64,000 nucleotides of DNA from Maribacter luteus (GTDB lineage Bacteria; Bacteroidota; Bacteroidia; Flavobacteriales; Flavobacteriaceae), in the NCBI RefSeq assembly GCF_009674825.1, contig NZ_WKJH01000024.1, forward strand, positions 124,001 through 188,000. The letters run 5' to 3'. The notes below the pieces were generated by a model, which was not told the DNA's origin, did no database searches, and was given only the letters and a program-made list of their open reading frames with translations. The translations under genes were made by a program, and so were the position numbers. Positions 20,967-44,689 of the stretch are shown here, piece after piece (position 1 is the stretch's first letter; every line of letters starts with the position of its first letter).

Positions 20967-20983
20967 GATTATTTAATTTTTAG

Positions 20984-23900: not shown

Positions 23901-24553
23901 TTTTCTTTCAATACTATTTGCAGATCCGTATTACCTGCAACAACGATCTCTTTTGTCGTATACCCAAGATAGGATACTTGTAAAATAGCGGCATCATTTA
24001 CAACTTGTATGATGAATTTACCATCAAAATCTGCGATTACTCCATTTTTAGTACCTTTTTCGACTATAGTCGCCCCTGCTAACAGGTTGCCATTTTCATC
24101 CATGACAACACCTGAAACTTGAAGCTTTTGATCGCTTTGTTCTTTGATTACAGGTAGCGGTTTTGGTTTCGGTGGCTTCTTCGTAGAGGTCTTCAGGACT
24201 ATATGCCTATCAACGATCGTATACTCAAGATTACTGTTAGAGAAAATTTGATTTAGGATAAATTCAATTTTCTTATTTTCAACCTTTAAAGTGATTTCAT
24301 TATCATTATTTAAATCACTTTTGCGGTAAAAAAAGCTAAATTCTGAAATGGATTCGATTTCATGGATAATCTCCAAAAATGAGGCTTTCTCCACATTTAA
24401 TGAAAGTTTCTTTTTTTGGGCATACCCCATGTTTGCCTGAAGCTGAAAAAGGGCAGTGAATAAAAAGAGTAATGAAAGCTTCATTTTTAAATTAAGTTTT
24501 GGAAAGATATACGTATTCGTACATCTTTCCCTAGAGTTCTCTAGTTTTTTCAT
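20984..24553 (-). CDS. susC-like: SusC-family TonB-dependent transporter with STN signalling domain
   Basis: 1189-residue outer-membrane transporter. Start at the ATG ending at 24553; an internal ATG ending at 24484 begins the hydrophobic signal (MKLSLLFLFTALFQLQA) and is an alternative. After the signal comes an STN domain (about 50-118, KKLSLNVEKASFLEIIHEIE onward), then a carboxypeptidase-regulatory-like beta domain (about 143-225), the EEVVVVGYGTQKK linker, the TonB plug (to about 360, with GAVIVTTRSGQ) and a 22-strand-type barrel to the C-terminal Phe. The STN domain is the part that, in ECF/FecR systems, contacts the periplasmic anti-sigma factor; both partners are encoded directly upstream, so it is a transducer as well as a transporter. 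Confidence 0.95.
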   Translation of the reverse strand: MKKLENSRERCTNTYIFPKLNLKMKLSLLFLFTALFQLQANMGYAQKKKLSLNVEKASFLEIIHEIESISEFSFFYRKSDLNNDNEITLKVENKKIEFILNQIFSNSNLEYTIVDRHIVLKTSTKKPPKPKPLPVIKEQSDQKLQVSGVVMDENGNLLAGATIVEKGTKNGVIADFDGKFIIQVVNDAAILQVSYLGYTTKEIVVAGNTDLQIVLKENAAALEEVVVVGYGTQKKINLTAAVSQVGSEVFENRPTANAFRSLQGTTPGLVISNSSSGGEPGASSDINIRGFVTSGGTGDIGDAEPLVLIDGIEMSLNDIDPEDIESVSILKDAAAASIYGSQAAAGAVIVTTRSGQNSQGQIKVNYNSSYSITQPSIWPESASPINFAYTINDARTNNNQGAYYDETDLANIMANMENPGSAPTIVSNASGNGWDYGTIGIEGTAATDWDDIIMKKWAQRVKHSVNITGGNEKMNFYLSAGLYDEEGLLKVGDESYQRYNLDAKISSKVNDWLTLELLSKYRKSYTDFPTEANSNTTFWNKSRVLDLITKIKPTLPQYDPIYGMELLQHTYYPFWDDQRVKTENNQIVLSPRIIIEPFEGLKINANFNYKRDNNFQEISILASQTVVPNGLVDKVSQASTSYSPTVSINEYFSPNIFATYDKSIKDHNLHATVGFQSEVNNYYALGASSDYLISNNIISLNASLDDDQTVTEAISHWSTVGLFSRFRYNYKEKYLFEFSYRRDGSSRFEPDNRWAGFPSFSAGYNIAKEEFWPIDAINTFKLRGSYGTLGNQNVDNYLYLSTIELNTGGTSYLFDGERLTFSQTPDISSENLTWEKVKTTDIGFDLSAFNSKLDLGFSWYRTDIEGMAAQGADLPAQLGTNAPLTNIGTSRVQGWEVETTWRQKLGDFGYSVRAVLSDYKRSIVEYPNDTKALTNYFAGQDLGDIWGFQTEGLFLTDEAATEVTSNIDYSFITGWARVAGDIEYKDVNGDNVIDRGEYVYGDTGDFGVIGNSTPRYQYSVNLGMNYKNWDFNALIQGVGKRDLAFGSQQRFRGPANGPFHAFVWEGHLDYFRPEDTTSPLGPNTDGYFPTPYLNGGGRNNKNYSYNTDRLLQNAAYTRLKSLQIGFTLPNDVTSRFHVDKLRIYATGENLFTFTDLMFFDPETNTSGLTGSAQSYPLSRILSLGVNLSF

Positions 24554-24632
24554 AATTTTGGAATGGTTTTAGTTAGTTACTACTGGAATCATTAATACGC
24601 CGGAAAGTGCTGCAACACTTTTCGGTTTTTTT
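24553..24632 (+). ncRNA. Candidate antisense RNA opposite the susC leader
   Basis: On the plus strand TAATTTTG (24553-24560) matches the Bacteroidetes -7 consensus TAnnTTTG, although no good -33 element is seen. About 40 bases further on there is an intrinsic terminator: a 10-bp stem at 24600-24609/24616-24625 with one G-T pair, then seven T. No plus-strand gene exists here. A transcript from about 24567 to 24632 would be complementary to the 5' leader of susC. Known Bacteroides PULs of the ECF/anti-sigma type carry cis-antisense RNAs at this position. Prediction only. Confidence 0.45.
24600..24632 (+). terminator. Plus-strand intrinsic terminator in the FecR-susC gap
   Basis: CCGGAAAGTG, a 6-base loop, CACTTTTCGG and then TTTTTTT. 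The T tract follows the stem only on the plus strand, so the element faces against all the genes around it. It is best explained as the end of an antisense RNA. Confidence 0.65.
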
Positions 24633-24702
24633 GTGACCTTTTTTATGTCATACGCTAAATATTTATTTCATTTATTATTGGTAACCTAGAATTCAATTTT
24701 AT

Positions 24703-25911
24703 TTAAACACTAGGTTTTATATTCACAATTATAATTTTACCATCCTCTTTATAAAATTCGAATGGTGTATGTTCTTGGCAGACTTCCAAAATCTTTTCCA
24801 AAGATTCATTTTCAAACGTGCCCGTGAATTTTTTCAACCCCAGCTCTTGGTATTCATTTTCAATCTCGACATTAAAATGGCGTTCTAATTCTTTCAACAT
24901 CAAATCAAAACTATCATCAACGAACAATAATTTATTATCCTTCCAAGCTATATACTTATTTATATTGGCCTTTTCTACCAATATCGCCTCTTCATTATAT
25001 ATTGCACGCTGTCCCGGCTTTATCTTAATGGGCTTACCGGCTTCCCCGTTATTTGATTTGTATACACTTACACTACCCTCGACCAATACCGTGGAGGTAT
25101 TGTTTTCATCCTTGTAACTAGACATATTGAATTCTGTGCCATACACTCGAGTATTCATATCGTCAGTAATAACCGTAAAAGGGCGGGACTCATCTTTTTC
25201 AACCGAAAAATAGGCCTCCCCATCTAAATAAACATTCCGCGGTGCATCCTTTAAAAAATTGATTGGATAGCGTAATTTTGTACCTGAATTTAAGTAAACC
25301 TCAGAACCATCAGATAATACGATTCCGAACTTCTTTCCATAGGGTACGGTAAGTACATTGTATTCCAAAGACCCTGATTCTTTATTTGCCTTATCATACT
25401 GCAACTTGTTTTTTTCTTGACTCACCACTTTCTTTCCCGAAGCGTCAGTAACAACCTTTGAAGAGGTCTCATCCAAGACAGCTACCGTGCCATCTTCGAG
25501 CTCAAGTGTTATTTGCGGTTGTACCACGACTGATTCAACAGGTGCCGCATCAAAAACACCTTGTGTATAGCTCACTATTCCTAAAGCAACCAACCCTACA
25601 AAAACAGCGGCTACCTTTAAGAAAACCCTGGATTTTGATTTTTGTGTTAACCGTATTTCTTTTTGTATATCATTTCTTTTTTCGATAATATGTCTCCACA
25701 TACCATCAAAATCTTTTTCAGAAAGCTTATCATTGTCAAAATCCATCAACAATACCAACCTTCTTGCTTTTTCAACCAATTCCCTTTTATTCGGATGGTC
25801 AGCCAACCAATTCTCCCAAAAACCATTGGTCATGGCATCACTGTCCAGCACCCATTTCTGGAAGTATTCATCCTTCACAAAATCTTCCAAAATGTAATTG
25901 ACATATTTCAT
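24703..25911 (-). CDS. FecR-family anti-sigma factor
   Basis: 402-residue inner-membrane regulator. The cytoplasmic N-terminal part (1-95, with WLADHPNKRELVEKAR) would hold the sigma factor. One membrane segment lies at about 96-114 (VFLKVAAVFVGLVALGIVSY). The periplasmic FecR domain contains TVPYGKKFGIVLSDGSEVYLN and the YLDGEAYFSV motif, and a C-terminal DUF4974-like region (KLLFVDDSFDLMLKELERHF onward) probably contacts the STN domain of SusC. It lies between the sigma gene and susC, all in one orientation. When SusC binds its ligand, the signal should pass through this protein to release the ECF sigma factor. Confidence 0.93.
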   Translation of the reverse strand: MKYVNYILEDFVKDEYFQKWVLDSDAMTNGFWENWLADHPNKRELVEKARRLVLLMDFDNDKLSEKDFDGMWRHIIEKRNDIQKEIRLTQKSKSRVFLKVAAVFVGLVALGIVSYTQGVFDAAPVESVVVQPQITLELEDGTVAVLDETSSKVVTDASGKKVVSQEKNKLQYDKANKESGSLEYNVLTVPYGKKFGIVLSDGSEVYLNSGTKLRYPINFLKDAPRNVYLDGEAYFSVEKDESRPFTVITDDMNTRVYGTEFNMSSYKDENNTSTVLVEGSVSVYKSNNGEAGKPIKIKPGQRAIYNEEAILVEKANINKYIAWKDNKLLFVDDSFDLMLKELERHFNVEIENEYQELGLKKFTGTFENESLEKILEVCQEHTPFEFYKEDGKIIIVNIKPSV

Positions 25912-26118
25912 TATTACCCAGAAAAAAAATGATAAACTTTATTGTTATCTAACAAGAGGGAAAAAAAGTATTATTACTTAAAAAAATTTAATTTTTTTTT
26001 AACAATACATCTAAAATAATTAGTTTTTAGCTATTAATATCTTTATCAATAACCGAGGACAAAATATAGGAAGGTGTTCTTGCTTTAAGAAAAAAATGAA
26101 GCTTGTATCGGGGATATT
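25912..26118. other. AT-rich spacer between sigma and fecR-like genes
   Basis: 207 bases, very AT-rich, with long A and T runs near 25973-26000. A weak 5-bp hairpin (AAGTA / TACTT) followed by T residues on the minus strand at about 25966-25980 might attenuate read-through. No open frame. Confidence 0.35.
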
Positions 26119-26757
26119 TTACTTGGAAAATAGATTTAATTGGTTTTTAAGAAGCTTTAGGGTATGCGCCATTAAATTGTAAATTCCTTTTTTATCAAGT
26201 GCCATGATTTCAGATATTTCATCATAACTTAAGCGACAATAATACTTTAAATGAATTATTTCCCTTTGCTTACCACTTAACTTTTGTAACTCCTTTGACA
26301 ATGCTGCCCTTTCATTATCAAACCGTTGTTTTTCTATAAGGCTTTTTTCTATTGAAGCCGTTGTTTCCACGACTTTCTCCAATTCAGTAGAACAATTGGT
26401 TTTTCTTTTTTTGGAAACTTGTGAAAGTAACTTTCTTCGTATAGATTTATATAGGTAAGATTTTATAGATCTGACCAGACCTAACTTGTGTTTAGTATCC
26501 CATAATTCTATAAAAAGATCCTGAATACAATCTTTTACCAATTCATGGTCCCTAACAAGTTTCAATCCATAACTATACAATTTTTCAACATGCAGTTCAT
26601 ATATAGTTGAAAAAGCAAGCTCACTACCTGCTTGAAATTCTTGCCATAATTGTATATCGGAAACTTCGCCTCTTTTTTCTAAGGGCCTAGATTCAAATAC
26701 GCTATTAACCTTATCTTCAATATCATTCGTCTTATGCAGGTGGCTATTCGAAGGCAA
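26119..26757 (-). CDS. ECF-type RNA polymerase sigma factor
   Basis: 212-residue sigma-70-family ECF factor. Region 2 lies at about 48-95 (AFSTIYELHVEKLYSYG, then VKDCIQDLFIELWD, which binds core polymerase and the -10 element). Region 4 is a helix-turn-helix at about 157-205 (LQKLSGKQREIIHLKYY, LSYDEISEIM). It is expected to transcribe the susCD operon when released by the FecR-like protein encoded just downstream. Odd point: the frame has no ATG. The only usual start codon before region 2 is the TTG ending at 26757, and the frame closes at a TAA ending at 26784, so translation may be weak. The first 32 residues precede the point where such factors usually begin (SDIQLWQEF). Confidence 0.92.
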   Translation of the reverse strand: MPSNSHLHKTNDIEDKVNSVFESRPLEKRGEVSDIQLWQEFQAGSELAFSTIYELHVEKLYSYGLKLVRDHELVKDCIQDLFIELWDTKHKLGLVRSIKSYLYKSIRRKLLSQVSKKRKTNCSTELEKVVETTASIEKSLIEKQRFDNERAALSKELQKLSGKQREIIHLKYYCRLSYDEISEIMALDKKGIYNLMAHTLKLLKNQLNLFSK

Positions 26758-29145: not shown

Positions 29146-29898
29146 AATCACTCAACACCATGCGTATTCCAAAATTGATCTATTATATTTTGATATAGAT
29201 TTAAATTAAAGATATTATGATAAACAAGTAAAGATAAAAGAAAATCATTCTTCAATATAGTACCTAAAAATAAGAGAAGGTCAATAATTACAGCTCAAAC
29301 AAAGGATATTCCCATTTATCACTACCTATCGAATATGGTCGAAATGATGGAAACTTGTTCGCAATATGTCCAAAAAAAATAAAGGAATCACCCCTAGCGG
29401 ATATAGAAGTAAATTTACCCAAAACAACAAACTTGAAGAGTACACTTTAACCAAGGAATAATCTAAAATCATCAACAAAGGACTGTTGTTTTTAAAAAAT
29501 GAATTAGAAACGAAAACATTTTATTTCATATAGGGTATAAAACCTTCTATAATTAAAACCGATATTTATGTGGAGGTAAACCCGAAAGATATTTCGACCC
29601 AAGTTATTTAAAACATAAAATCCGACCATTTACATGATCGGATTCTCATTAGTCGGGGTGGCAGCATTAAAACCCTTGGCTTTTACCCTTTGAAAAACAG
29701 CATATTCCCGCTATTACGGCACATAAGTCTTGTGTTTTAATACTTTCATAGCGTTATCAAATCGACCCAAATAAGGTTATAGGTAAAGTCTGTATTTATG
29801 ATAAAAAATATCAGCTAGAAAATCCGGAAACATTTGAAATAAAATGGAATGCAACTTTCTAATGCTCCCTATCATCCAATATATATTTACCAATCCAT
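29146..29898. other. Gene-poor stretch with possible coding debris
   Basis: About 750 bases without an intact gene. Short open stretches look like eroded coding sequence: a 32-codon plus-strand frame from the ATG near 29367, and one reading VCIYDKKYQLENPETFEIKW and ending at the TAA at 29860-29862. None matches a family I know. It also contains the tRNA-Pro 3'-end-like repeat at 29647-29664. Together these suggest a decayed insertion site. Confidence 0.4.
29647..29664 (-). repeat. 18-bp repeat, tRNA-Pro 3'-end-like (left copy)
   Basis: CATTAGTCGGGGTGGCAG on the plus strand. It is identical at 17 of 18 positions to 35865-35882. Read on the minus strand it ends with CTGCCACCCCGA, the 3' acceptor end of a tRNA-Pro (acceptor CGGGGTG). 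Next to it is a hairpin (AATCCGA / TCGGATT, 29619-29644) placed as a tRNA terminator would be. Such tRNA 3' ends are classic integrase attachment sites. Confidence 0.5.
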
Positions 29899-31296
29899 TT
29901 ACCGAGCTGGCTGGATATTTTGATTTACCCTGAAGAAATTCTCCGGATCGTATTGTTTCTTTATGGTCGTAAGTCGTTCATAATTGCTTTTATAACTTGC
30001 CTTGATTCGTTCTTGACCTTCATCCATTATAAAGTTAAGATAGGCCCCACCGGTCGAATAAGGATGAAGTGCTTTCCAATAGTCCTTGCACCAATCTTTA
30101 ATTTTCTCTGCATTGGACGGATCGGGATCAACCCCAACGATAACCCCAGCATATTTTGCATCTCTGTTGGCCCAAGGTGTCTCTTCCTTTCCAACTCGGC
30201 TAGCGGCACCACTGATAGGATATAAATGCATTTGCGAAAGTGGCGTCGGAATTTTAGACCCAAACTCCAAATGTTTGGCCCTTACTTCCGAACCTAGGTC
30301 GTCGAAGTAGTCTGCCCTCCAGTACCATTGTAGACCAGGGGGCAACATTTCATCGAACATGGTCTGAATAGCAGGATAAGGCATTTCCCCGACATGATGA
30401 AAGATGGGTTTCATTTCTAGGACAGGTCTGAAAACTTCTTCTTGTTTCTCAGGTCCTCCCAAATAAGACCAAACTATACCGCAGAACATTTTATTATGCA
30501 ACTCTTCGGGAAAGGGCGCACCAGGGATAACCATGGTAGCTATAAAACCGTTAAGATCATCCGGGGCATCATTGATAAAGGTATGATACCATTCCATAAC
30601 CTCCTCGATTCTTTCAATGGGCCACAACGATGGGCCCCCTATGATATTCTTGACTGGATGCCCCTGAAATTTAAAGGAGGTTACAATCCCAAAATTTCCG
30701 CCACCTCCTCGGATAGCCCAGAATAAATCAGTGTTCTGTTTCGCGCTTACGGTCACAAAGGACCCATCTGCCAAGACCATATCCGCCTCCAGTAAATTGT
30801 CTATCGTTAGGCCATACTTTCTAGAAAGATAACCAACTCCACCCCCTAAGGTAAGACCACCCACTCCCGTGGTTGAAATAATACCGGCTGGAACGGCAAG
30901 TCCAAATGGATGTGTGGCATGATCTACCTCACCCCATAAATTTCCACCACCAACCCTGACCGTACTATGCTCCACATCTATATGAACGAATTTTATTCCG
31001 GAAAGATCGATGACCATTCCATCATCACAAAGTCCGAGGCCACCCCCATTATGACCACCTCCCCTAACGGCAACCAAAAGGTTGTTCTCCCTACCAAAAT
31101 TTACAGCGGATATTACGTCTGCTACGTCGGTGCACATGACGAACATTGCAGGGCGCTTATCTATCATTGCATTGTAAATTTTGCGCGTTTCGTTATAATT
31201 TGGGTCTTTAGGGAAAATGACTTTTCCCCTAATCTGAGCGGTAAAAGCATCTAAAACAGAGGCTTCCAATTCCTTAATCTTACCTTTTGTTGACAT
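29899..31296 (-). CDS. FAD-dependent oxidoreductase, berberine-bridge-enzyme type
   Basis: 465-residue oxidoreductase of the FAD_binding_4 plus BBE family. RGGGHNGGGLGL near 78-89 carries His82, the expected covalent 8-alpha FAD ligand. GVGGLTLGGGVGYLSRKYGL near 145-165 is the second FAD-binding stretch. The C-terminal BBE motif (NFFRVNQNI) closes the fold. At the place where bicovalent members have Cys (before VGVGG), this protein has STTGVGG, so FAD is probably held only by the His. There is no signal peptide, so it is cytoplasmic. Relatives oxidise sugars, alcohols or alkaloids; the substrate here is unknown. It is encoded 70 bases downstream of the cyclase fusion, in the same direction. 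Confidence 0.88.
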   Translation of the reverse strand: MSTKGKIKELEASVLDAFTAQIRGKVIFPKDPNYNETRKIYNAMIDKRPAMFVMCTDVADVISAVNFGRENNLLVAVRGGGHNGGGLGLCDDGMVIDLSGIKFVHIDVEHSTVRVGGGNLWGEVDHATHPFGLAVPAGIISTTGVGGLTLGGGVGYLSRKYGLTIDNLLEADMVLADGSFVTVSAKQNTDLFWAIRGGGGNFGIVTSFKFQGHPVKNIIGGPSLWPIERIEEVMEWYHTFINDAPDDLNGFIATMVIPGAPFPEELHNKMFCGIVWSYLGGPEKQEEVFRPVLEMKPIFHHVGEMPYPAIQTMFDEMLPPGLQWYWRADYFDDLGSEVRAKHLEFGSKIPTPLSQMHLYPISGAASRVGKEETPWANRDAKYAGVIVGVDPDPSNAEKIKDWCKDYWKALHPYSTGGAYLNFIMDEGQERIKASYKSNYERLTTIKKQYDPENFFRVNQNIQPAR

Positions 31297-31366
31297 GATT
31301 GTTTTGTTTAATTAATGATGATTTGATTGTTGTTATTACTTCTATTTTTTGAGAAGTGTTTATTTC

Positions 31367-32683
31367 TCAATGTGCATTGGACTTCATCGTATCGATTACA
31401 AAATCCAGTGCAGTATTCCAAGCTTCCATAGTTTTTAACGTCTTGTACTCTCCCAATACTTCATCAATGGTTTCGATCATCGCTTGTTTCACCACAGGGT
31501 AGTATTCGGCCTTTACACCATATTGGATATGACTTTTACCCAATTTTGCCAGCCCTTTTTTGAGATGTTCCGGTCTAGATAGGGAATAGACGATGCCACC
31601 TAACATATGGGTAAGTAACCGCCCCTGATCGGTCATGTTATTACTAAATAACGCCCTGACAAAAGGGGCTATTTCAAATACTTTATCATAGAATGTTTTG
31701 GCGAATTTATCCTCGTCCTCCAACATAATGTTCATTGAAGCCTGTAATTCAAGTTGAAGATCCATCCCTTTAAATCCTTTCAATTCAAATAAATTCAAAG
31801 GATCTTCCTTCCCTGCTAATTTGTTGCAGAACTTGCGCCCAATTATCACTGTTTCTTTATTTACATTGTCCAAGATCGTTTCCGATATTAGAATATCCGT
31901 ATTCGTTACCTTGGTTTCATTTTGGATACGACTAGCCACGTTTACTGGGTCTCCAATGACCGAGAATTGTTTATGGGTAGGATGTCCAAGATGACCTAAA
32001 AAGGCGGTCCCGAAATTGAGACCAATTCCTGATTTCAGTTTAATCTCTATGTCCTTTAAATCAGACTTGTTGAGGGAATCAAGGGCATATTGCATTCCTA
32101 ATGCAGCACGTATTGCATCTTCACAATTCTTCTCGGCTGTACCACCGGTGGCACCAAATACACCGACAATCTCGTCTCCAACATATTGGTAGATAACACC
32201 ATTGTTCATCAATATGGGCTCCCCTAATGCGGTATAGAACTTATTGAGCATATAGGCTATGTCATAATTGAGGTTTTTGGAAGAGAGGTTCGTGAAATTT
32301 CTTAAGTCACAGAAAAGAATGGCAATCGGTCTTTCTTCTGCCCTGCCCGTGGGGACTAATTCTTTTTGTAGATTGTTGACTTCTCCACTTGACCAAATCA
32401 GGCGTTGTAGTGTTACATCACCTTTAGGTCTTGCCTGACAGGCCAGTCTTATAGATGGATCCCACTTTCGGGCCTGGCTACTGGACTTCTCGAATTCTGT
32501 TTTGGGACTAAGATTCCTTACCCCATCTAGGACCCTTACCCTGCAGGTGGTACAGATACCATTTCCACCACACTCATGCAAATGGGGAATTCTGTTCGCT
32601 ATTGATAGGTCAAGTAGTGTATTGGTATTCGATTTGAACGTTACCTGTCGATTGATTGCCGAGTATGTTAAGGTTTTGACCAT
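31367..32683 (-). CDS. Ferredoxin - class III nucleotide cyclase - globin fusion
   Basis: 438 residues in three modules. (1) Residues 1-100 form a plant-type [2Fe-2S] ferredoxin with Cys38, Cys44, Cys47 and Cys82. (2) Residues about 115-305 form a class III adenylate/guanylate cyclase: metal-binding Asp126 (LFCDLRNFT) and Asp170 (YVGDEIVGVFG), and the transition-state pair Asn248/Arg252 (GDPVNVASRI), so it should be active. (3) Residues about 310-438 form a globin of the flavohaemoglobin type: FYDKVFEIAPFVRALF, then proximal His385 in KSHIQYGVKAEYYP. Likely role: a cytoplasmic sensor that makes cAMP or cGMP in response to redox state and to O2 or NO. The modules are seen directly; the signal and product are inferred. 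Confidence 0.88.
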   Translation of the reverse strand: MVKTLTYSAINRQVTFKSNTNTLLDLSIANRIPHLHECGGNGICTTCRVRVLDGVRNLSPKTEFEKSSSQARKWDPSIRLACQARPKGDVTLQRLIWSSGEVNNLQKELVPTGRAEERPIAILFCDLRNFTNLSSKNLNYDIAYMLNKFYTALGEPILMNNGVIYQYVGDEIVGVFGATGGTAEKNCEDAIRAALGMQYALDSLNKSDLKDIEIKLKSGIGLNFGTAFLGHLGHPTHKQFSVIGDPVNVASRIQNETKVTNTDILISETILDNVNKETVIIGRKFCNKLAGKEDPLNLFELKGFKGMDLQLELQASMNIMLEDEDKFAKTFYDKVFEIAPFVRALFSNNMTDQGRLLTHMLGGIVYSLSRPEHLKKGLAKLGKSHIQYGVKAEYYPVVKQAMIETIDEVLGEYKTLKTMEAWNTALDFVIDTMKSNAH

Positions 32684-32730
32684 TTGATTTTGTTTTAATA
32701 TGGTTGATTGGATAACTATTTGGCATTGGT

Positions 32731-32738
32731 CAAAATTA
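32731..32738 (-). promoter_or_regulatory. Promoter -7 element of the cyclase-fusion gene
   Basis: On the minus strand TAATTTTG fits TAnnTTTG. It lies 48 bases before the ATG ending at 32683, which would give a leader of about 40 bases. No convincing -33 element. Confidence 0.45.
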
Positions 32739-32785
32739 AATTTGAAGATTGATTTTTTTTACACCCTATTCTATGATTTATAAAA

Positions 32786-32827
32786 ATCACACTTAAGCTA
32801 GAGACACTATCACACAATTGTGTGATA
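32786..32827. promoter_or_regulatory. 20-bp perfect palindrome plus extra half-site between divergent genes
   Basis: TATCACACAATTGTGTGATA (32808-32827) is a perfect palindrome in the shared upstream region of the cyclase-fusion gene and the histidine-kinase gene. A further direct half-site ATCACAC lies at 32786-32792, exactly 23 bases before the same heptamer at 32809. This is typical of an operator for a dimeric regulator that binds on one DNA face. It is not followed by a T tract on either side, so it is not a terminator. Confidence 0.6.
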
Positions 32828-32965
32828 CTGATAATCATTGTTTTAGGTGTTGGAATACACGTAGAATTGGATAACTTTGACACAATGTAATCTTTGGTTG
32901 GGTAAATCCGAATAAACCATTGGAATCATTGGAAGTTTGATTTTTGTATCACGAAAATTATTGAC

Positions 32966-34837
32966 ATGCTGGGTAAAAAGCTATTCTTTTTATTTATTAT
33001 AATCGGTTTCAAGTTCGCGACGGGACAACCTAACGAGTTGGATAGTCTGAAGACGGTAGTAAACCTGATGTCAGAGGATTCTTTGAAATGCGAGACCTAC
33101 TTACGCATTGCCTATCTGCTATATTCAGGTGAGGAATCTGAATGGTATGGCAACAAGGCATTGAGGCTTTCCAAGAATTTGAATAGCCCTAAACTTATCG
33201 GTAGATCATATCATAGACTGGCTTGGTGTCATGGTCTGGATGAGATGGATAAGAAAACCGCCTATTTAGACAGTGCTACAATCCGGTTTACTTCGATAGC
33301 CGATAATTACGGTCTCGGAAGTGTATACGATACTAAAGGTACAATTCTAATGGCCTATGGTTCAATCAGCGAGGCTTTGAAGGCCTATCAACAAGCCTAT
33401 GATTTCTATTCAAAAATAACTGACTCTGAACGACAGGCAGGTGTACTGAATAATTGGGCGATTGCAGAATATACTGGCGGAAACACAAAAGAGGCACTTT
33501 ATAAATTTCAAAAGGCTCTGGACTATAGAATAACTGAGAAACCGATCTCGCATATCGATATCGCACGCCTCTATCAAGGCTTGGGGGAGTGCCATAGAAT
33601 AAATGGGGATTTGGAAATGGCGGCAACAAATTATCTCAAAGGATATGAGCACAGGAACGCCGTAGAAAATATTGGTGTGGTAGAATCGATGCTCAGCTTG
33701 GCTTCCCTGATTTATGAGGCCGCCGAAAAAAAAATGGATACATTGGCTATTGTAGGGCTCGTGAATGATTATGGGTTTGTTAGCTCGCTACACCTTATAG
33801 AAAGTGCAGAAAAGACAAGGGGAATAGCGGATAGAATTGGAATGAAAAACGCTATCATGGATGTGAGACGTCAACGTAATATATTGAATAAAGATTTTAA
33901 GGCTGCATACGAAATTCTGCTGAAACAGAAACAACTACAAGAGGAGTATAAGCTCAGTGAAAGTAGTTTGGAGGCTATGGCCGATATGAAGGTCAAATTC
34001 GAAAAAGACCAATTAAAGATCAAACTACTTGAGGAAGAGGTAGTCAATCAAAAAAGCCAAGATCGCATGACTATGTTATTATTTTCCCTCGGGGCGTTGT
34101 TATTAATCGCTATAATAGGGCTGCTCTATTACCAAAATCGTGTAAAGACGGGTCAACTCAAACTTAATGAAGCTCATAGGGAACAACAGATCGTCTCTAT
34201 GCGTTCTATGTTGGAAGGACAGGAAAAGGAACGTTCGCGTATTGCCCGCGATCTTCATGACGGTCTTGGAAATTTATTGTCGACCCTGAAGGTGAACATA
34301 GGTAGCCTTCAAATCAATTTCGATGATAAGAATTCAAAAAAGATTTATGGTTCGGCCAGCCAAATGATCGATGAAGCCTGTATTGAGGTACGAAAGATCG
34401 CCCATGAGATGATGCCACAGGCGCTCAAGAAATTAGGACTCCGAAAAGCTTTGGAAGATCTTGTTTTAAAAATGGACGCCATACATGAATTCGATGCGGA
34501 ATTCCATGTTCATGGAAAGGAAAGAATTTTTGATGACAGCACCAATGTGATGCTCTTCCGAATCGTACAGGAGGCATTGAACAACATTGTAAGGTATGCC
34601 AAAGCGAAAGAAGTCTCAGTGCAGATAACCTATAGTGAGGATTGGTTTGACCTCACCATTGAAGATGATGGAATAGGTTTCGACCCCAATGCATTGGATA
34701 CCGACAAAGGAATGGGCTTAAAGAGTATCGCCTTCAGGACCGAATTCATTAAGGGCACCTATGACCTTACCAGTCGCCCCGGTGTGGGAACCTTGGTAAC
34801 AATAAACATACCCTTGAACAATATTCCAGAAGCCTAA
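32966..34837 (+). CDS. TPR-containing NarL-type sensor histidine kinase
   Basis: 623 residues. Signal peptide (to about 20), then about 300 residues of TPR-like helical repeats (for example GSISEALKAYQQAYDFYSK near 132-150 and GNTKEALYKFQKALDYR near 172-188). A coiled coil follows at about 322-365, one membrane segment at about 369-389, then the HisKA_3 dimerisation domain with the phospho-acceptor His431 (RSRIARDLHDGLGN) and an ATPase domain with the N box (VQEALNNIVRYAKA) and GIGF near 565. The sensor part is therefore periplasmic and built of TPRs, a common Bacteroidetes form. The partner response regulator is encoded 20 bases downstream. Signal unknown. Confidence 0.92.
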   Translation: MLGKKLFFLFIIIGFKFATGQPNELDSLKTVVNLMSEDSLKCETYLRIAYLLYSGEESEWYGNKALRLSKNLNSPKLIGRSYHRLAWCHGLDEMDKKTAYLDSATIRFTSIADNYGLGSVYDTKGTILMAYGSISEALKAYQQAYDFYSKITDSERQAGVLNNWAIAEYTGGNTKEALYKFQKALDYRITEKPISHIDIARLYQGLGECHRINGDLEMAATNYLKGYEHRNAVENIGVVESMLSLASLIYEAAEKKMDTLAIVGLVNDYGFVSSLHLIESAEKTRGIADRIGMKNAIMDVRRQRNILNKDFKAAYEILLKQKQLQEEYKLSESSLEAMADMKVKFEKDQLKIKLLEEEVVNQKSQDRMTMLLFSLGALLLIAIIGLLYYQNRVKTGQLKLNEAHREQQIVSMRSMLEGQEKERSRIARDLHDGLGNLLSTLKVNIGSLQINFDDKNSKKIYGSASQMIDEACIEVRKIAHEMMPQALKKLGLRKALEDLVLKMDAIHEFDAEFHVHGKERIFDDSTNVMLFRIVQEALNNIVRYAKAKEVSVQITYSEDWFDLTIEDDGIGFDPNALDTDKGMGLKSIAFRTEFIKGTYDLTSRPGVGTLVTINIPLNNIPEA

Positions 34838-34857
34838 TATAATCAATCGAATATGAC

Positions 34858-35508
34858 ATGGAGATGATAAAAGTATTATTAGCCGATGACCATCAGATAA
34901 TGCTCGATGGATTAAAAGCAATTATAGCCAAAGACAGATCGCTCAAAGTAGTTGGTACGGCTTGCAATGGACTGGAAGTACTGGAGTATCTTAAGAAAGA
35001 ACCTGTTGATGTGCTGTTACTTGACCTACAGATGCCCGGCATGGATGGACTTGAGACCACTTTGCATGTTAAGAAGTCCTTCCCGAATGTAAAAGTAGTC
35101 ATGCTTACTACAAATGACGAAGGAAGTATCATTATGTCCTTGTTCAAGGTGGGTGCCACTGGATATCTATTGAAGAATGCCTCAAAGGAATACCTTATTC
35201 AAGGGATCAAGGATGCACATGCAGGGAAAAGAGTTCTCAGTTCGCATCTTACGGAAAAGATGATCGAAAGCCTTACCGAAGAGCCGAAAATCAAAGAAGG
35301 AACCATACCCAAGATTACCAAACGCGAGATTGAGGTGATAAAATTGATCGCGCAGGAATACACCACGCAAGAGATTGCAGATACACTATTCGTTAGCACC
35401 AATACTGTGGCTACCCATAAACGGAACCTATTTGTTAAAATGGAGGTAAAGAACTCCGTAGGTATGGTCAAAAAGGCTTTGGAATGGGGACTATTAGATC
35501 AGCGTTAG
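34858..35508 (+). CDS. NarL/FixJ-type response regulator
   Basis: 216 residues. The receiver domain has Asp10/Asp11, phospho-acceptor Asp56 (LLLDLQMPGMDG), Thr near 84 (MLTTND) and Lys near 105 (YLLKNAS). A LuxR-type helix-turn-helix at about 150-210 contains ITKREIEVIKLIAQEYTTQE and VSTNTVATHKRN. It is co-transcribed with the TPR kinase that should phosphorylate it. A second possible start is two codons later, at 34864. The target genes are not known; the palindrome upstream of the kinase is one candidate for autoregulation. Confidence 0.94.
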   Translation: MEMIKVLLADDHQIMLDGLKAIIAKDRSLKVVGTACNGLEVLEYLKKEPVDVLLLDLQMPGMDGLETTLHVKKSFPNVKVVMLTTNDEGSIIMSLFKVGATGYLLKNASKEYLIQGIKDAHAGKRVLSSHLTEKMIESLTEEPKIKEGTIPKITKREIEVIKLIAQEYTTQEIADTLFVSTNTVATHKRNLFVKMEVKNSVGMVKKALEWGLLDQR

Positions 35509-35831
35509 AAATTTGTTGACCCAGACACCCTTTCTTAAAGGTTTCTTTATAGGGAATATAAAGAAGTCCCTAAATGATATTCTAACGAGATTATCCACAC
35601 AATTTTGCAAGACAGATTATGGGTTCAATTGCGGGTATTTAAAGCTACCATAGGCATGGTAAATCATTTTATCAAAAATCTACAAATGCATTTTAAATTT
35701 TGAATTCTAAATAAATACCTAAATTTAATATAACAACGATAGTTAAAATCGGTAAAAAAGCCTAGGTGCTCGTGCGCTTTTAATCCCTTATTTCCAGTAG
35801 CATATAAAAGTAAGCTTCCATATTAGGAAAT

Positions 35832-35864
35832 AAAAAAGCCAGAAATCTAAAGATTTCTGGCTTT
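35832..35864 (-). terminator. Intrinsic terminator next to the tRNA-Pro remnant
   Basis: 13-bp perfect stem (AAAGCCAGAAATC / GATTTCTGGCTTT) with a 4-base loop. On the minus strand the T tract extends to TTTTTT. It lies exactly where the terminator of a minus-strand tRNA ending at 35871 would be, although only the tRNA 3' end survives. Confidence 0.7.
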
Positions 35865-35882
35865 CATTTGTCGGGGTGGCAG
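35865..35882 (-). repeat. 18-bp repeat, tRNA-Pro 3'-end-like (right copy)
   Basis: CATTTGTCGGGGTGGCAG, a 17/18 match to 29647-29664 in the same orientation. Minus-strand reading continues as a T-arm-like piece (GGGTTCAAGCCCTGCCACCC), but the 5' T-stem strand no longer pairs well and the rest of the tRNA is missing. It is therefore a remnant or attachment site, not a functional tRNA. Confidence 0.55.
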
Positions 35883-36088
35883 GGCTTGAACCCAACCACA
35901 TAAAACTTTACATACCAACAAGTTACATTCCAAAAAAACTTAACTGTTAGCCGATTTGTTGACGATACTTAAATGAACTTAAAGCAAAATGCCTTACTTC
36001 TGACGTTGCGAATATAAAATATGTTAATTATTAAAACAATCAATTTAGCAGCAAATCTTATAATAATCCATGTGTTTTATATTGTAAA

Positions 36089-36981
36089 TCAACACAATAC
36101 TTCTTTTAATGAGACAATAAATTTTCCATGCTTCTCAGGATTGGCATATTTGAGTTTAACAAGATTCCGTAGTTTCCATTGAACGGCGGGAAAACGTTTA
36201 AAATCATAGATAGCCCAATTGGGAGTCCCCTCTCCAAAACTTAATAAGAACTCTTTGTCTTTATCTGTTAGATTTTGATAGATTGTTTTTATCAATTCCT
36301 TTCTGTTTTTTTCAAAGTCCTCATAGGTAAAGGGTTCTGGACCCATACCGTCAAACTGGTTAATCAAGGTTTCTCTTTGGTCAATAAAATAGGGATGCAA
36401 CATTTCGTGTAGGGGCCTGTTGCTGCTCAAAAGGAACAATATGAAACCTTTTTTGATTTCTTCGGTGAATCCTTCATTTTCCAACAGGTATTTTACATCA
36501 AACATATCCCTAGGATGCTGACGGTCCAATGCTGCGCAGATTTTTCCGCCATACAATTGCCCTAAAGGAACCACAGGAACAACACAGAAAGCATCAAACT
36601 CCTCTTAGGTCTTTTCACATAGTGGCCATGTTAATGTTTTATCCATGACCTTCTGTTGATTTGGTTCACTTCCAATTTTATCTGTGCGTTTGAGGTCGTG
36701 ATTTGAAGTTTCAATTTGTCCCTTTTTAAGGTAATTGAAGCTACTAATAACATTTTTTAGAGTTGTGTTTTTATACGGTCAAGACCATCAATAATATTCT
36801 TAAAGGATGTCTTTCTGTCCTCTATGGGAATATAGGTCAAATCAATATCCACGGACAATCTGGGCATGTCCCATACAAAGAGGTTGATAGCCGTACCCCC
36901 ATCCAGTGGGAAAATCGGTTCCTTTGCCACTTCTGGCAATACCTGTAACAATAGGGAAACCTGTTGCTTATAATTACTCAT
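36089..36981 (-). pseudogene. abiEii: Decayed AbiEii-type nucleotidyltransferase toxin
   Basis: Toxin half of an AbiE type IV toxin-antitoxin system. The N-terminal part (start ATG ending at 36981) has FPLDGGTAINLF and the nucleotidyltransferase motif LSVDIDLTYI. The C-terminal part (36089-36574) has VPLGQLYGGKICAALDRQHP followed by RDMFDVKYLL, typical of AbiEii. In between there is an in-frame TAA at 36757-36759, a frameshift near 36645-36652, and a second TAA at 36605-36607 (probably a former CAA, since TQEEFDAF would restore the pattern). The gene is therefore inactive. Its start overlaps the antitoxin stop by 8 bases, as in intact abiE operons. Confidence 0.82.
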
Positions 36982-37738
36982 AATTTTCCAATGCTTTAGG
37001 AACAGTAATTTGATATTTGGATATATAAACACCGTCCTTTAACAAAGAACGTTTTCCTTTTCCAAGGTATATATTTTCCAAACTCATATATTTAAACCAA
37101 TCGTGCCCTACCTTTTCTGCCATATACAGGAAAAGTCTTTTCACTTTTACCGAGGTACAAGCTTCCAAAAGTCCTTGTACCTGTTTCGGCCTAAGGTTGT
37201 TCAATCCCTCCATGATTTCGTAGCACTCGACCAGTTCTTGCTTTTTGGGCGATAGGTACAGACATTCCATTAAAGCTCTTGCCGAGTTGGACACCAACAA
37301 ACTGAAAGCTCCTTGTTCCAAAGTTTGTAGTCCTATATTGGGTGGCAGAAAAGAGGAACTAAAGTAGTTTATTTTTACCTCCCAACTGTATTTTGAAAAC
37401 CAAGCGGGTAATTTTTCTTCGCTTCCCCCAAACAACGTTACCTGCTTTGTGGATAGCTCCAGATAATGGGTCTTTCCCAATAAGGATAAGGCCGTTTTAC
37501 CTCCTGGATGGACACTTAAGTTAGCTTGTTCTTGCAATGCATACAATGCTCCTTGATAGTTTGGCTTATCTCCCATTCGCATCCAAGCCCCTGGTCCTAT
37601 GGAATATATCCAACTGCTCTTTTTATATCGATTAAGCAATTGTGTTGAGAACCCATTTTTCGTTAACCATGAACTCAAATAGACAACTCCCGGAGGCTGT
37701 GAATTAAGAAGATGGTTTATTTTTTGCTCTTTTTCCAA
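36974..37738 (-). CDS. abiEi: AbiEi-type antitoxin, apparently intact
   Basis: 254-residue transcriptional repressor and antitoxin of the AbiE type IV system. The N-terminal helix-turn-helix region (VVYLSSWLTKNGFSTQLLNR near 18-38) is followed by the wing SSWIYSIGPGAWMRMG and by the AbiEi C-terminal domain (QANLSVHPGGKTALSLLGKTH near 92-112, SNSARALMECLYLSP near 160-175). No stops or frameshifts. Its 3' end overlaps the toxin start by 8 bases. In known systems AbiEi represses its own promoter through inverted repeats; one such repeat is seen at 37808-37824. With the toxin broken, the antitoxin is an orphan that may persist by drift or as a regulator. Confidence 0.82.
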   Translation of the reverse strand: MEKEQKINHLLNSQPPGVVYLSSWLTKNGFSTQLLNRYKKSSWIYSIGPGAWMRMGDKPNYQGALYALQEQANLSVHPGGKTALSLLGKTHYLELSTKQVTLFGGSEEKLPAWFSKYSWEVKINYFSSSFLPPNIGLQTLEQGAFSLLVSNSARALMECLYLSPKKQELVECYEIMEGLNNLRPKQVQGLLEACTSVKVKRLFLYMAEKVGHDWFKYMSLENIYLGKGKRSLLKDGVYISKYQITVPKALENYE

Positions 37739-38436: not shown

Positions 38437-39684
38437 ATGAAATTTTTTCATGTAACGTTATTAATACTGTCAAGCTTTTTTTTATCCGCTCAAGAGCTTA
38501 TCAAATTTCAAGTTGAAACGGGTAAATATGACCGTATGGATTGCCCTATAACAGTACGTATTTCACAAGAGTCAATTCTTAAAGGAAACTACAATCTACA
38601 GCTAATTGAACATGAAACCGATGATAAAACTCCCTTGGCTGCCCAACTTGATAAAAAAGCAGGTAAATTATATTTTGTTTTAAAGGGTTTTACCCCGAAA
38701 AATACCACTAGAAAATTTTCCTTAATCCATAGCAAAATAGAATTTAGTTTTCCTGAAGTTGATATGTTATGTAGCGAAGGATCATTACAATTATCCTATA
38801 AAAACCATCCTATTTTGAACTATCAATATGATCTTGTTTATCCTCCAAAGGGCATAGATTCAATATATAAAAAATCAGGATTTATCCATCCATTGTGGTC
38901 ACCAGGTGGGGAAGTTTTGACAAGAATACAACCATCCGATCACTTTCACCACTACGGAGTTTGGGGGCCATGGACAAAAACTAAAATTGAGAATCGTCAT
39001 GTAGATTTTTGGAATTTGGGAAAGGGGGAAGGGACCGTGTTATTTAAAAAATTCATCTCTAAAAAAGTTGGTCGTGTTTTTTCCGAATTCACCACCCTAC
39101 AAGAACATATGGATTTGGTGGGCAAAAAGGAAAATAGAGTGGCTATTAACGAATACCTTGAAATACGAGCTTGGAATTTAGGTGACGAAAAACCTTGGTT
39201 AATTGATTATTCTTCCAAAATCAATAGCCCTCTTAAAGATGGTATTCTTTTAGACACATATCATTATGGTGGAGGAATAGCGTTTAGAGCAACAGAATTA
39301 TGGCAAAAAAACAATATTTCAATACTAACTTCAGAAAATAAAAACCGATCCAATGCAGATGGAAGCTCTGCAAAATGGGTCCTTATTGAGGGAACAACCC
39401 ATACAAAATCCGGTAAAGGCGGTATATTGTTTATGAGTCATAAAGAAAATAAACATTTTCCGGAACCTATGCGTCTTTGGCCTTCTGATGCTAATGGAGG
39501 TAAAGGTGATCTACTTTTCGAATTTTGTCCCATCCGTAACCAATCATGGAAACTTGATAGTAATAAAAACTACGAATTAAAGTACAGAATGCTTGTTTAC
39601 GAAGGTATTATAAATGCCGAGCATGCAGAAATAGCATGGCAAGGTTTTGTCAATCCTCCAACTGTTTTTATAGAAACCAAGTGA
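38437..39684 (+). CDS. DUF6807 (PmoA-like) secreted protein
   Basis: 415 residues with a Sec signal peptide (MKFFHVTLLILSSFFLSAQ). The core matches the DUF6807/PmoA-like family, with the histidine-rich signature RIQPSDHFHHYGVWGPW near 166-182 and DTYHYGGGIAFRATELW near 280-296. The catalytic role of this family is not firmly known; it often accompanies Gfo/Idh/MocA oxidoreductases and DUF1080 proteins in glycan loci, as it does here. It is the only plus-strand gene of the second PUL and converges with the DUF4861 gene, 16 bases away, so it is a separate transcription unit. Confidence 0.75.
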   Translation: MKFFHVTLLILSSFFLSAQELIKFQVETGKYDRMDCPITVRISQESILKGNYNLQLIEHETDDKTPLAAQLDKKAGKLYFVLKGFTPKNTTRKFSLIHSKIEFSFPEVDMLCSEGSLQLSYKNHPILNYQYDLVYPPKGIDSIYKKSGFIHPLWSPGGEVLTRIQPSDHFHHYGVWGPWTKTKIENRHVDFWNLGKGEGTVLFKKFISKKVGRVFSEFTTLQEHMDLVGKKENRVAINEYLEIRAWNLGDEKPWLIDYSSKINSPLKDGILLDTYHYGGGIAFRATELWQKNNISILTSENKNRSNADGSSAKWVLIEGTTHTKSGKGGILFMSHKENKHFPEPMRLWPSDANGGKGDLLFEFCPIRNQSWKLDSNKNYELKYRMLVYEGIINAEHAEIAWQGFVNPPTVFIETK

Positions 39685-39700
39685 TATACCCAATCTTGAT

Positions 39701-40570
39701 TCAATTGAATTTTGATTCTTTCCCCACATACTTTACAAACCTTTCAAAATTATTGACATCGGCTTCTTTTGCATTGGCTGAAGTTATCCAGCTTTCAATT
39801 CGTTTAGTAGGTTTGGAAATAAGTAAATATTCATCTTCTTTATCGATTTTTTTAATGAAATTATTAGGATCGAATATTATTGCCGCTCCTATCTCTATTT
39901 TTTCCAAGGCCACATCCTCGGGATGTAAACCCCACGTAATGAAATAATTAGATTCTTTTTTTACTTTTTGATTTGGATGATGATTAATTCCGGTTACGAA
40001 TTGCACCGGTTTCGAAGTAAGTGCAAATGCTTCCACCTTGGCTTTACGGAGACCAGTATAAACTGTTACTCTAACCAATATATCGACATTAATATTTTTA
40101 TAGGGCACTCCTTCTGAAAGCATTTCCATATAAGAGGTAGTTCCTTCCTTTACCACTCGTGCGGACCTTTTACTTACGGGGTTTAATGGTACTACTTTTT
40201 CTCCATCCCACAAGCGTATACCCCCAAGTCCAACCGTGTTTCCTGCTTTATAATAATCCGCTCCCCATCCATTTTTTTGTTGTTCCGCATTTGGGTACCA
40301 TTTCACTTTGCCCAACTCTAATCCCTTATTCGTTTTAGAGTAAATATCAATCGCGGCCAATTTATTGAAATAAATTCTAAAACCCAGCCACTCATTTTCT
40401 ATGGCAGGCCCATGATGACCTAATTCATTAAACAAATCACCTTCATTTGAGCTGACCTCATTAAGGAATTTGGTACTATCCTTTTTAAAAAAAAGACTTA
40501 CATCGGTATTATTCTGTGTACGACCAACATAGTTGAAAAACACCATGATCATAACTGTTATTAGACGCAT
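39701..40570 (-). CDS. DUF4861 secreted protein
   Basis: About 289 residues. The start is the ATG ending at 40570; the longer frame begins at a TTG. Signal peptide to about residue 19. Family features are GHHGPAIENEWLGFRIYF near 53-70, GGIRLWDGEKVVPL near 118-131 and GINHHPNQ near 195. DUF4861 proteins are common in Bacteroidetes loci for uronate-containing polysaccharides, but the reaction is not established. It is the last gene of the minus-strand PUL run, 76 bases after the GH88/GH105-type hydrolase. Confidence 0.7.
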   Translation of the reverse strand: MRLITVMIMVFFNYVGRTQNNTDVSLFFKKDSTKFLNEVSSNEGDLFNELGHHGPAIENEWLGFRIYFNKLAAIDIYSKTNKGLELGKVKWYPNAEQQKNGWGADYYKAGNTVGLGGIRLWDGEKVVPLNPVSKRSARVVKEGTTSYMEMLSEGVPYKNINVDILVRVTVYTGLRKAKVEAFALTSKPVQFVTGINHHPNQKVKKESNYFITWGLHPEDVALEKIEIGAAIIFDPNNFIKKIDKEDEYLLISKPTKRIESWITSANAKEADVNNFERFVKYVGKESKFN

Positions 40571-40646
40571 ATTCAATTGTTTTTATATTCTTTTTATTTA
40601 TATCAGGAACTATCTGATTACATAGGCCCCTGTTAATTGACGGTTA

Positions 40647-42137: not shown

Positions 42138-42213
42138 ATTTGAATAATTTTGTTTAATCGGTTTTCTTTAAAAAAACAATGTGATGGTTTTAATAAATAT
42201 CACAGTGAAGGAC

Positions 42214-43014
42214 CTAACTTTTTTTTGCTATTCTTCTTAAAAAGCGAGCAGTTTTTTTGGACATTTCATCCGGTTTATATCTTATTTTCTTTGGCGATTT
42301 TCCAAACAACTCTTTAAACCAAACACTTCCAGCAAGGTAGCAGCCGTTTATATTGGCATGATACCGATCATTCAAACTCCAAAGATCAAGACCTTTCCTT
42401 TTCTTGAAAGAACGATCAAAGGCATCACCTGAATGCAAAATGACTGAATTATATCTTTGGGAAAGGGTTATATAATTTTTTTTCAACCTTTCGTACATTT
42501 GATTCGATGTAATCCCAAACCCATCTAAACGGGGACAATCCGGTGCGTATGCCCAGGTTTCATGAATATAAATTTTGGCCTGCGGTGCATATTTACTTAC
42601 ATAATCCCTGATTTTATCAGCATAAGGCTGAAATGATTCGGTTTTAAAGCTAAGAGTACTTACCTGTTGAATGGTAACTATATCCCAATCATCAGTTAAC
42701 AGCCATTCTTTTAATGACTTACCACTGTACGGTTTAATTGTGGAATCCAATTCACTTTGCTTTATAAGTTCTGCATGTTTTTCCAAATTGCATCCTCCAA
42801 TATTGGCTTTGCCAATAATAATTTCGCACCCCCTCACCGATTCGGAAATTTGTTTCAAATATTTGCTGGCATTATCCGCAAAGCTATTACCTATGGTCAA
42901 AATGCGAATTGTATCCGATGCCTTATTATGTATACTGTTCGTAAACGCTTTCGCCGGAAGCGTAAAAAGTAGAATTAATAGTAAACCATAAAAATTGATT
43001 GTTAGTTTTTTCAT
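42214..43014 (-). CDS. SGNH-like DUF4886 protein
   Basis: About 266 residues with a signal peptide (start ATG ending at 43014; another ATG ends at 43026). ILTIGNSFADNASKYL near 38-53 is the block I motif of DUF4886, an SGNH-hydrolase relative in which the Ser lies in GNS. DIVTIQQVS near 110 and DRYHANINGCYLAGSVWF near 217-234 provide the later blocks, with the His expected for the catalytic dyad. Probably an esterase acting on decorated glycans; the substrate is unknown. Confidence 0.7.
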   Translation of the reverse strand: MKKLTINFYGLLLILLFTLPAKAFTNSIHNKASDTIRILTIGNSFADNASKYLKQISESVRGCEIIIGKANIGGCNLEKHAELIKQSELDSTIKPYSGKSLKEWLLTDDWDIVTIQQVSTLSFKTESFQPYADKIRDYVSKYAPQAKIYIHETWAYAPDCPRLDGFGITSNQMYERLKKNYITLSQRYNSVILHSGDAFDRSFKKRKGLDLWSLNDRYHANINGCYLAGSVWFKELFGKSPKKIRYKPDEMSKKTARFLRRIAKKS

Positions 43015-43034
43015 AAAATAGTTCATTTAAATTT

Positions 43035-43439: not shown

Positions 43440-43443
43440 TATA

Positions 43444-44637: not shown

Positions 44638-44689
44638 GTTTTAATCTTTGGGTTTCAGGCAGAAAATCACGGTTCATTAAAAAAAGAGA

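Follow-up and report, generated by a model that had tools for sequence, protein, structure and literature searches.

What kind of enzyme results when a ferredoxin domain, a nucleotide cyclase and a globin are joined in one polypeptide, and what would its activity depend on? This question is raised by an open reading frame in the 64,000-nucleotide stretch of the Maribacter luteus genome that was analyzed here and is referred to as the window. The frame (31367..32683, minus strand) begins with an ATG start codon, encodes 438 amino acids and comprises the following parts.

31367..32683, minus strand: Fer2-class III nucleotide cyclase-globin protein (Pfam, alignment, AlphaFold2 model)
32423..32650, minus strand: Fer2 [2Fe-2S] domain, residues 12–87, with Cys 38, 44, 47 and 82 (Pfam; Cys in 33/33 rows)
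32333..32407, minus strand: linker 1, residues 93–117, with a model helix at 99–109 (conservation, model)
31853..32332, minus strand: class III cyclase catalytic domain, residues 118–277 (model core ~113–305), with Asp126/170, Asn248/Arg252, Gln166 and Ser241 (Pfam, 1wc1_C superposition, 2w01 alignment)
31385..31696, minus strand: globin domain, residues 330–433, with Tyr332, Phe346, Gln353 and proximal His385 (Pfam, 3wfw/3s1i alignment)

Domain architecture and predicted fold

All three domains scored about twice their Pfam cut-off or higher: Fer2 (residues 12–87) with E 4e-10 and 39.9 bits against a cut-off of 21, Guanylate_cyc (118–277) with E 1.5e-14 and 54.5 bits against 21.9, and Globin (330–433) with E 8.3e-13 and 49.3 bits against 22. 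Sequence matches to solved structures were obtained for the cyclase domain (2w01, E 7e-19; 1wc0), the globin domain (3wfw, 3s1i, 7dih and flavohaemoglobins) and the Fer2 domain (1i7h and others). The nearest NCBIfam models were the NO-inducible flavohaemoprotein for the globin part (49.2 bits vs a cut-off of 432), and nqrF and fdx_isc, both below cut-off, for the Fer2 part. With scores this far under the equivalog cut-offs, the protein is none of these three.

An AlphaFold2 model built from a 121-row alignment was confident (mean pLDDT 86.9, pTM 0.80), following a poor earlier model from 16 sequences (pLDDT 66.7). The modeled cyclase part superimposed on 1wc1_C with Z 27.1 and an rmsd of 1.6 over 188 residues; this fold search result concerns the cyclase part, as the match lists were filled by cyclase chains. 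The preliminary description of this DNA, which had called for a domain search and a structure prediction, had proposed a complete [2Fe-2S] Cys set, a class III cyclase with two metal-binding Asp residues and an Asn/Arg pair, and a C-terminal flavohaemoglobin-type globin with His385 as the proximal ligand. Its observation holds: the cysteines, the cyclase residues and His385 are present where it had placed them and are invariant in an alignment of 16 orthologs.

Conserved chemistry of the three domains

In a larger alignment, the four cysteines were kept in all 33 triple-domain rows that reach this region, and with the Pfam match these ligands identify a plant/adrenodoxin-type Fer2 domain. The cyclase belongs to class III by alignment and model, with the class III fold, both metal Asp residues (Asp126 in 33/33 and Asp170 in 34/34 triple-domain rows) and the Asn/Arg pair (Asn248 in 34/34; Arg252 in 33/34, with one Lys). 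Tyr332, Phe346, Gln353 and His385, the pocket residues at B10, CD1, E7 and F8 in globin helix nomenclature, were invariant in 34 of 34 triple-domain rows, and the PF00042 match together with the proximal His and the Tyr/Gln distal pocket assigns the domain to the F/M flavohaemoglobin-type globins. The protein is nevertheless not a flavohaemoglobin (Hmp), as Pfam detected no C-terminal FAD/NAD reductase domain. Nor is it a globin-coupled sensor, since these carry an N-terminal sensor-type globin ahead of the output domain (PMC1457004), whereas the globin of the window protein is C-terminal and matches PF00042. The order Fer2-cyclase-globin differs from that of globin-coupled sensors; the preliminary description had already noted that globin-coupled cyclases usually have the globin at the N-terminus and no ferredoxin.

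The residue preceding the proximal His was Ser, Asn, Gln or Arg, and never Lys, in the 34 triple-domain rows, while Lys occupied this position in the single flavohaemoglobin row aligned. In flavohaemoglobins this Lys contacts FAD, and their catalytic triad includes a Glu. The missing Lys is consistent, at the level of sequence, with a globin that has no FAD partner. These residues bear on an enzyme-first explanation, in which the globin would be an NO dioxygenase or another haem oxidase with Fer2 as its electron supply, and the cyclase would simply report turnover through the redox state of the cluster. The invariant flavohaemoglobin-type pocket would suit such an enzyme, as would the NO-inducible flavohaemoprotein being the nearest NCBIfam model, despite its low score, and ferredoxin reductases have been linked as electron donors to globin NO dioxygenases (PMC3820574). 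However, the protein lacks the FAD/NAD reductase domain as well as the Lys before the proximal His, the gene cassette described below contains no reductase gene, and the protein ends shortly past a conserved Trp, so that the triad Glu has no counterpart. We therefore consider this explanation unlikely.

The purine-selecting positions of the window protein are Gln166 and Ser241. The first was Gln in 31 of 34 triple-domain rows and Lys in two Bradyrhizobium rows and a gammaproteobacterial row, and the second was Ser, Ala or Thr. Adenylyl cyclases use a Lys/Asp pair and guanylyl cyclases a Glu with a variable partner (PMC4215837). Gln166/Ser241 fits neither rule, so that a preference for ATP or GTP cannot be called. 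Gln at the first position is no hallmark of the family, as it also occurred in 20 of 33 other cyclase rows.

The linkers were conserved like the domains. Linker 1 (residues 93–117) had a majority-residue fraction of 0.80 with 8 of 25 positions invariant, compared with 0.75 and 168 of 438 positions for the whole protein, and the other linker had a fraction of 0.74 vs 0.75 overall. Such conservation would suit mechanical coupling between the domains.

Distribution and phylogeny

The triple-domain protein is recurrent and not a one-off. Full-length relatives were found in Bacteroidota, in two Bradyrhizobium species and, as one frameshifted copy, in a gammaproteobacterial metagenome-assembled genome (MAG). 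The M. luteus genome contains one copy and four further places with cyclase-only similarity. Within the genus, one of 11 other genomes (G008; completeness is only 68% for two of the 11) had a full-length match at 99%. In the family sample (Flavobacteriaceae), 15 of 397 genomes encoded the full-length protein and two more a Fer2-cyclase without globin; the corresponding numbers in a phylum sample of 395 genomes were three and two (with L131 checked by Pfam). The preliminary description had missed this recurrence. Literature searches of CC-licensed papers retrieved no paper describing a Fer2-cyclase-globin protein.

A scan of named genomes yielded at least 570 matches, the best 80 of which were classified. 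These 80 comprised 20 loci with three domains (L049–L068; Flavobacteriaceae, among them Wocania arenilitoris (L063), Algoriphagus, Echinicola, Agaribacillus, Lewinella and the two Bradyrhizobium species), the gammaproteobacterial MAG locus (L111) with its three domains split by a frameshift, 43 Fer2-cyclases behind an N-terminal region of >200 residues, and 16 matches with the cyclase only. Among 248 genomes of the family to which a Bradyrhizobium carrier belongs, only that genome matched at E 1e-70. Of 569 matching plasmid records, none covered >80% of the query, and rhizobial Fer2-cyclases prevailed among the matches listed. As the identical open frame occurs in many genomes, it is not an assembly artefact, and a chance fusion of unrelated frames has virtually no probability, being refuted by the conservation of frame and domain order across two phyla.

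Short soluble Fer2-cyclases of ~300 amino acids with neither globin nor membrane anchor were also observed (L047, L048, L132, L133 and L139); these five rows have Asp or Glu at the first purine-selecting position. Some relatives can thus do without the globin. In a Fer2-cyclase tree of 71 rows (thinned beforehand by omitting 13 of 45 rows with the domain plan of the rhizobial cyclase CyaC, and including L111 by its cyclase part only), a branch with a support of 100 separated the CyaC-plan rows, as the sister group, from the triple-domain and short forms. The short forms nest inside the triple-domain forms, which hence need two changes on this tree, subject to long-branch warnings. In a globin tree, the triple-domain proteins fell on one side with a support of 25. 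A single fusion of the globin with later loss from the short forms is one possible history among others. The Bradyrhizobium triple-domain proteins grouped with those of Bacteroidota, apart from the CyaC-plan cyclases of Bradyrhizobium (L140, L141). A CyaC-plan cyclase at a locus titled Mesoflavibacter (L095) grouped with Rhodospirillales rows, which may reflect transfer or a mislabeled sequence.

The globin-less short forms in Bacteroidota and the two changes required on the globin branch would both be in keeping with a redox sensor only. In such a protein the cluster alone would control cyclase activity, much like a soluble version of CyaC, with the globin as an accessory for stability, dimerisation or haem storage. 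We regard this as rather unlikely, though still to be reckoned with, because the haem pocket residues are unchanged from one phylum to another, a constraint not expected of a domain with a purely structural role, and because the linker following the cyclase is short and conserved.

Comparison with CyaC and other haem-containing cyclases

The combination of haem, a [2Fe-2S] cluster and a class III cyclase is already known from CyaC (SMc01818) of Sinorhizobium meliloti, the closest characterised counterpart, with a different haem domain. CyaC is described as having a membrane domain of six helices that carries two haem b and as being activated on oxidation by quinones, and the [2Fe-2S] cluster is drawn in a figure of the source (PMC10463352). 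CyaC resembles the window protein in its two kinds of cofactor, [2Fe-2S] and haem, and in a class III cyclase directly preceded by Fer2, and differs in its N-terminal, quinone-responsive dihaem membrane anchor, whereas the window protein is soluble with a C-terminal globin.

Our sequence comparison was made through same-plan rows of other rhizobia and not with SMc01818 itself. In these rows, a hydrophobic N-terminal region is followed by Fer2 and then the cyclase; Fer2-cyclase was 28–35% identical to the window protein, the four cysteines were present in 45 of 45 rows, and the first purine-selecting position was Lys in 43 of 45. The window protein shares with the CyaC type a Fer2 domain beside a related class III cyclase, but its Fer2 domain starts at residue 12, leaving no N-terminal dihaem membrane anchor. 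Simple hydropathy detected no hydrophobic segments in the soluble relatives scanned (L049, L067, L068 and L111), compared with three to seven per row in ten CyaC-plan rows. By its anchor, the window protein is not a CyaC; given the shared Fer2-cyclase plan, it would work like CyaC with a haem domain of another type at the opposite end. In an Agrobacterium locus (L073), a possible cNMP-binding protein, judged by visual inspection, is encoded at 3570–4064, immediately upstream of the CyaC-plan cyclase.

In the Leishmania major cyclase HemAC-Lm, the globin is N-terminal and of a different globin type. HemAC-Lm is a globin-coupled soluble adenylate cyclase that makes cAMP on O2 binding (PMC4534343); it thus resembles the window protein in being soluble and in combining a globin haem with a class III cyclase, but it is eukaryotic and has no Fer2 domain. 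The top sequence matches of the window globin, Hell's Gate globin (3s1i), the HGbRL globin (3wfw) and thermoglobin (7dih), represent globins that stand alone or are fused to Roadblock or an FAD/NAD reductase, but not to a cyclase. The guanylyl cyclase Cya2 (2w01) and the Spirulina adenylyl cyclase CyaC (1wc1) share the catalytic fold and the metal and transition-state residues with the window protein, in which Gln166 replaces the Glu of Cya2 and the Lys of adenylyl cyclases.

A conserved gene cassette around the cyclase

In the window, the cyclase gene is part of the following four-gene arrangement.

29899..31296, minus strand: FAD-binding berberine-type oxidoreductase, 465 amino acids, downstream of the cyclase and co-directional, 70 bp gap (Pfam FAD_binding_4 E 1e-30, BBE E 9e-14)
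32809..32826, no strand: palindrome ATCACACAATTGTGTGAT in the divergent intergenic region, presumed operator (conservation in cassette loci)
32966..34837, plus strand: TPR histidine kinase (HisKA_3, HATPase_c), divergent from the cyclase (Pfam)
34858..35508, plus strand: LuxR-type response regulator (Pfam Response_reg E 9e-27, GerE E 7e-16)
29762..35830, no strand: mobile cassette, delimited against a second species of the genus (G008; 98.45% over 6069 bp)

The order response regulator, histidine kinase, divergent cyclase, FAD oxidase was found at seven of 22 triple-domain loci with flanks, namely the window, Flagellimonas, Allomuricauda, two Robiginitalea and two Algoriphagus loci, the last representing another family of the phylum. 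Kinase and oxidase also flank the cyclase at four more short loci (L006, L034–L036), giving 11 cassette loci in total. At all 11, the oxidase adjoins the cyclase and the histidine kinase is divergent; the response regulator was present in eight, including G008, and the flank was too short to reach it in the other three. The cassette was absent at the remaining 15 of the 22 flanked loci, so the oxidase and the two-component system are not required by the triple-domain protein.

The 18-bp palindrome was exact in eight and had ≤2 mismatches in all 11 cassette loci, and it occurred at no other locus of the comparison set. Its only site in the M. luteus genome at ≤2 mismatches is the one in the cassette, which points to a local rather than a global regulator. 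The divergent two-component system most likely binds this palindrome, which would then serve as an operator for cassette transcription. A TAnnTTTG box, of the Bacteroidota promoter type, faces the cyclase in seven of seven aligned intergenic regions and the kinase in most (by eye).

Positions 29762–35830 were the only DNA common to the window and G008 at E 1e-10 across 19.9 kb of G008, and at the one other locus compared between the two genomes identity was 85.9% over 2030 bp. A cassette identity of 98.45%, with nothing matching beside it, hence means that the cassette has moved recently. Outside the cassette, DNA did not match between genera except in close pairs (Flagellimonas/Allomuricauda throughout, and one flanking gene family in the Algoriphagus pair). 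By these comparisons, the cassette moves between species of Bacteroidota. A flanking PQQ-type gene was present in one of 12 genus genomes, that of M. luteus itself, and thus allowed no comparison of insertion sites.

Beside the right edge of the cassette, positions 35835–35900 contain a perfect 14-bp terminator-like hairpin and, after it, sequence similar to the 3' end of a tRNA. ARAGORN predicted no tRNA within the window, and a DNA search found the fragment to be single-copy in the genome, which leaves its reading as an attachment site unsupported. The cassette also adjoins a short AbiEii nucleotidyltransferase toxin piece that matches the profile end only (36089–36574) and an AbiEi antitoxin (36974–37738), together an apparently broken type IV toxin-antitoxin pair. 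Genes for polysaccharide or sugar-acid utilisation surround the cassette at 19257–26757 and 38437–46039 (SusD, TonB receptor, FecR, ECF sigma factor, GH88, DUF4861, DUF6807 and GFO/IDH/MocA).

The FAD oxidase outside the cassette

Close homologues of the oxidase were detected in 53 of 397 family genomes and were more common in genomes with the triple-domain protein (10/15) than in others (43/382; Fisher p 1.4e-6, uncorrected for kinship). Among the 11 triple-domain genomes without the cassette, six contained the oxidase (Fisher p 8e-4, likewise uncorrected for kinship), and five of all 15 had none at E 1e-120. We examined 14 of 54 non-cassette oxidase places, comprising the eight best and six in triple-domain genomes. 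At 12 of these the oxidase adjoins a SCO4226-like/AraC regulator and at seven a truncated haemoglobin (PF01152; one barely at the cut-off), the three genes forming a recurrent locus (L163–L169, L173, L174 and L176). The 379-amino-acid regulator gene was considered as a split cyclase, which was rejected because it encodes a SCO4226-like domain and an AraC helix-turn-helix. With the globin of the cassette and the truncated haemoglobin at these places, the oxidase is found beside a globin in two unrelated settings.

This recurrent proximity, the adjacency of oxidase and cyclase in every cassette locus and the enrichment of the oxidase in triple-domain genomes, as yet uncorrected for kinship, would also fit a cassette that serves the oxidase, with the cyclase sensing O2 or peroxide that the oxidase produces or consumes and adjusting oxidase expression. 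Against this, 15 of 22 flanked triple-domain loci have no adjacent oxidase and a third of the triple-domain genomes (5/15) lack it at the above threshold, and we judge such a role to be highly improbable.

Other genomic settings and candidate receivers

Outside the cassette clade, Pfam analysis of 20 neighbor proteins at nine named triple-domain loci revealed no consistent neighbors, but a mixture of metabolic and stress genes. Only the Bradyrhizobium pair, with nearly identical loci in B. altum and B. oropedii, had a respiratory setting in common: the cyclase gene is flanked on one side by genes for cytochrome bd (cydA in L067, cydB in L068) and on the other by the cbb3 oxidase genes ccoN and ccoP. 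These species are closely related, so that they count as one observation, and the gene neighborhood fits a possible sensing of O2 or respiratory redox state. The M. luteus genome has eight cNMP-binding places above the Pfam cut-off, and the window protein is the sole PF00042 globin found in it.

Proposed mechanism and significance

We propose that two cofactors are read by the window protein, a soluble class III cyclase that would act as a homodimer, and assign this reading, with the cassette scheme as a whole, a probability of roughly 60%. Control by redox plus gas is likely and, as we infer, the best reading of the data. The [2Fe-2S] cluster of the N-terminal domain would set or report the redox state and act on the cyclase through the conserved helix region 93–117, as the [2Fe-2S]/haem input may do in CyaC. 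The C-terminal haem would bind O2 or NO and act on the cyclase by way of the short connection that follows its final strand. As no flavin reductase domain is attached, the cluster is a possible electron source for the haem and may keep it ferrous. The cyclic nucleotide, cAMP or cGMP, would act on CRP-type receptors, for which the eight cNMP-binding proteins of the host are candidates. Two-component system, palindrome, oxidase and cyclase would together form a self-contained redox/gas-response cassette moving between Bacteroidota.

A more elaborate version of this scheme is possible but doubtful. In it, the portable cassette would encode a cyclase in which electrons cross the catalytic core from the [2Fe-2S] domain to the haem of the globin, with an output that is an AND/OR function of redox state and O2/NO. 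This output would be coupled to the FAD oxidase, and the two-component system of the cassette would tune it via a dedicated operator; the protein would then be a soluble reinvention of CyaC, with the haem domain changed in type and end.

Our searches of CC-licensed literature retrieved no account of what such cyclases do in Bacteroidota. If the proposed control holds true, the protein would offer, in soluble and expressible form, a single catalytic unit with a redox cofactor on either side, and the path from cluster state and haem ligation to second-messenger output would become testable within one polypeptide. The comparison with CyaC poses the question of how one Fer2-cyclase core takes haem input from either end. 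For Bacteroidota, the enzyme would represent a defined cyclic-nucleotide input and a redox cyclase traveling with its own regulators, and one second messenger may report redox state and oxygen or nitric oxide together.
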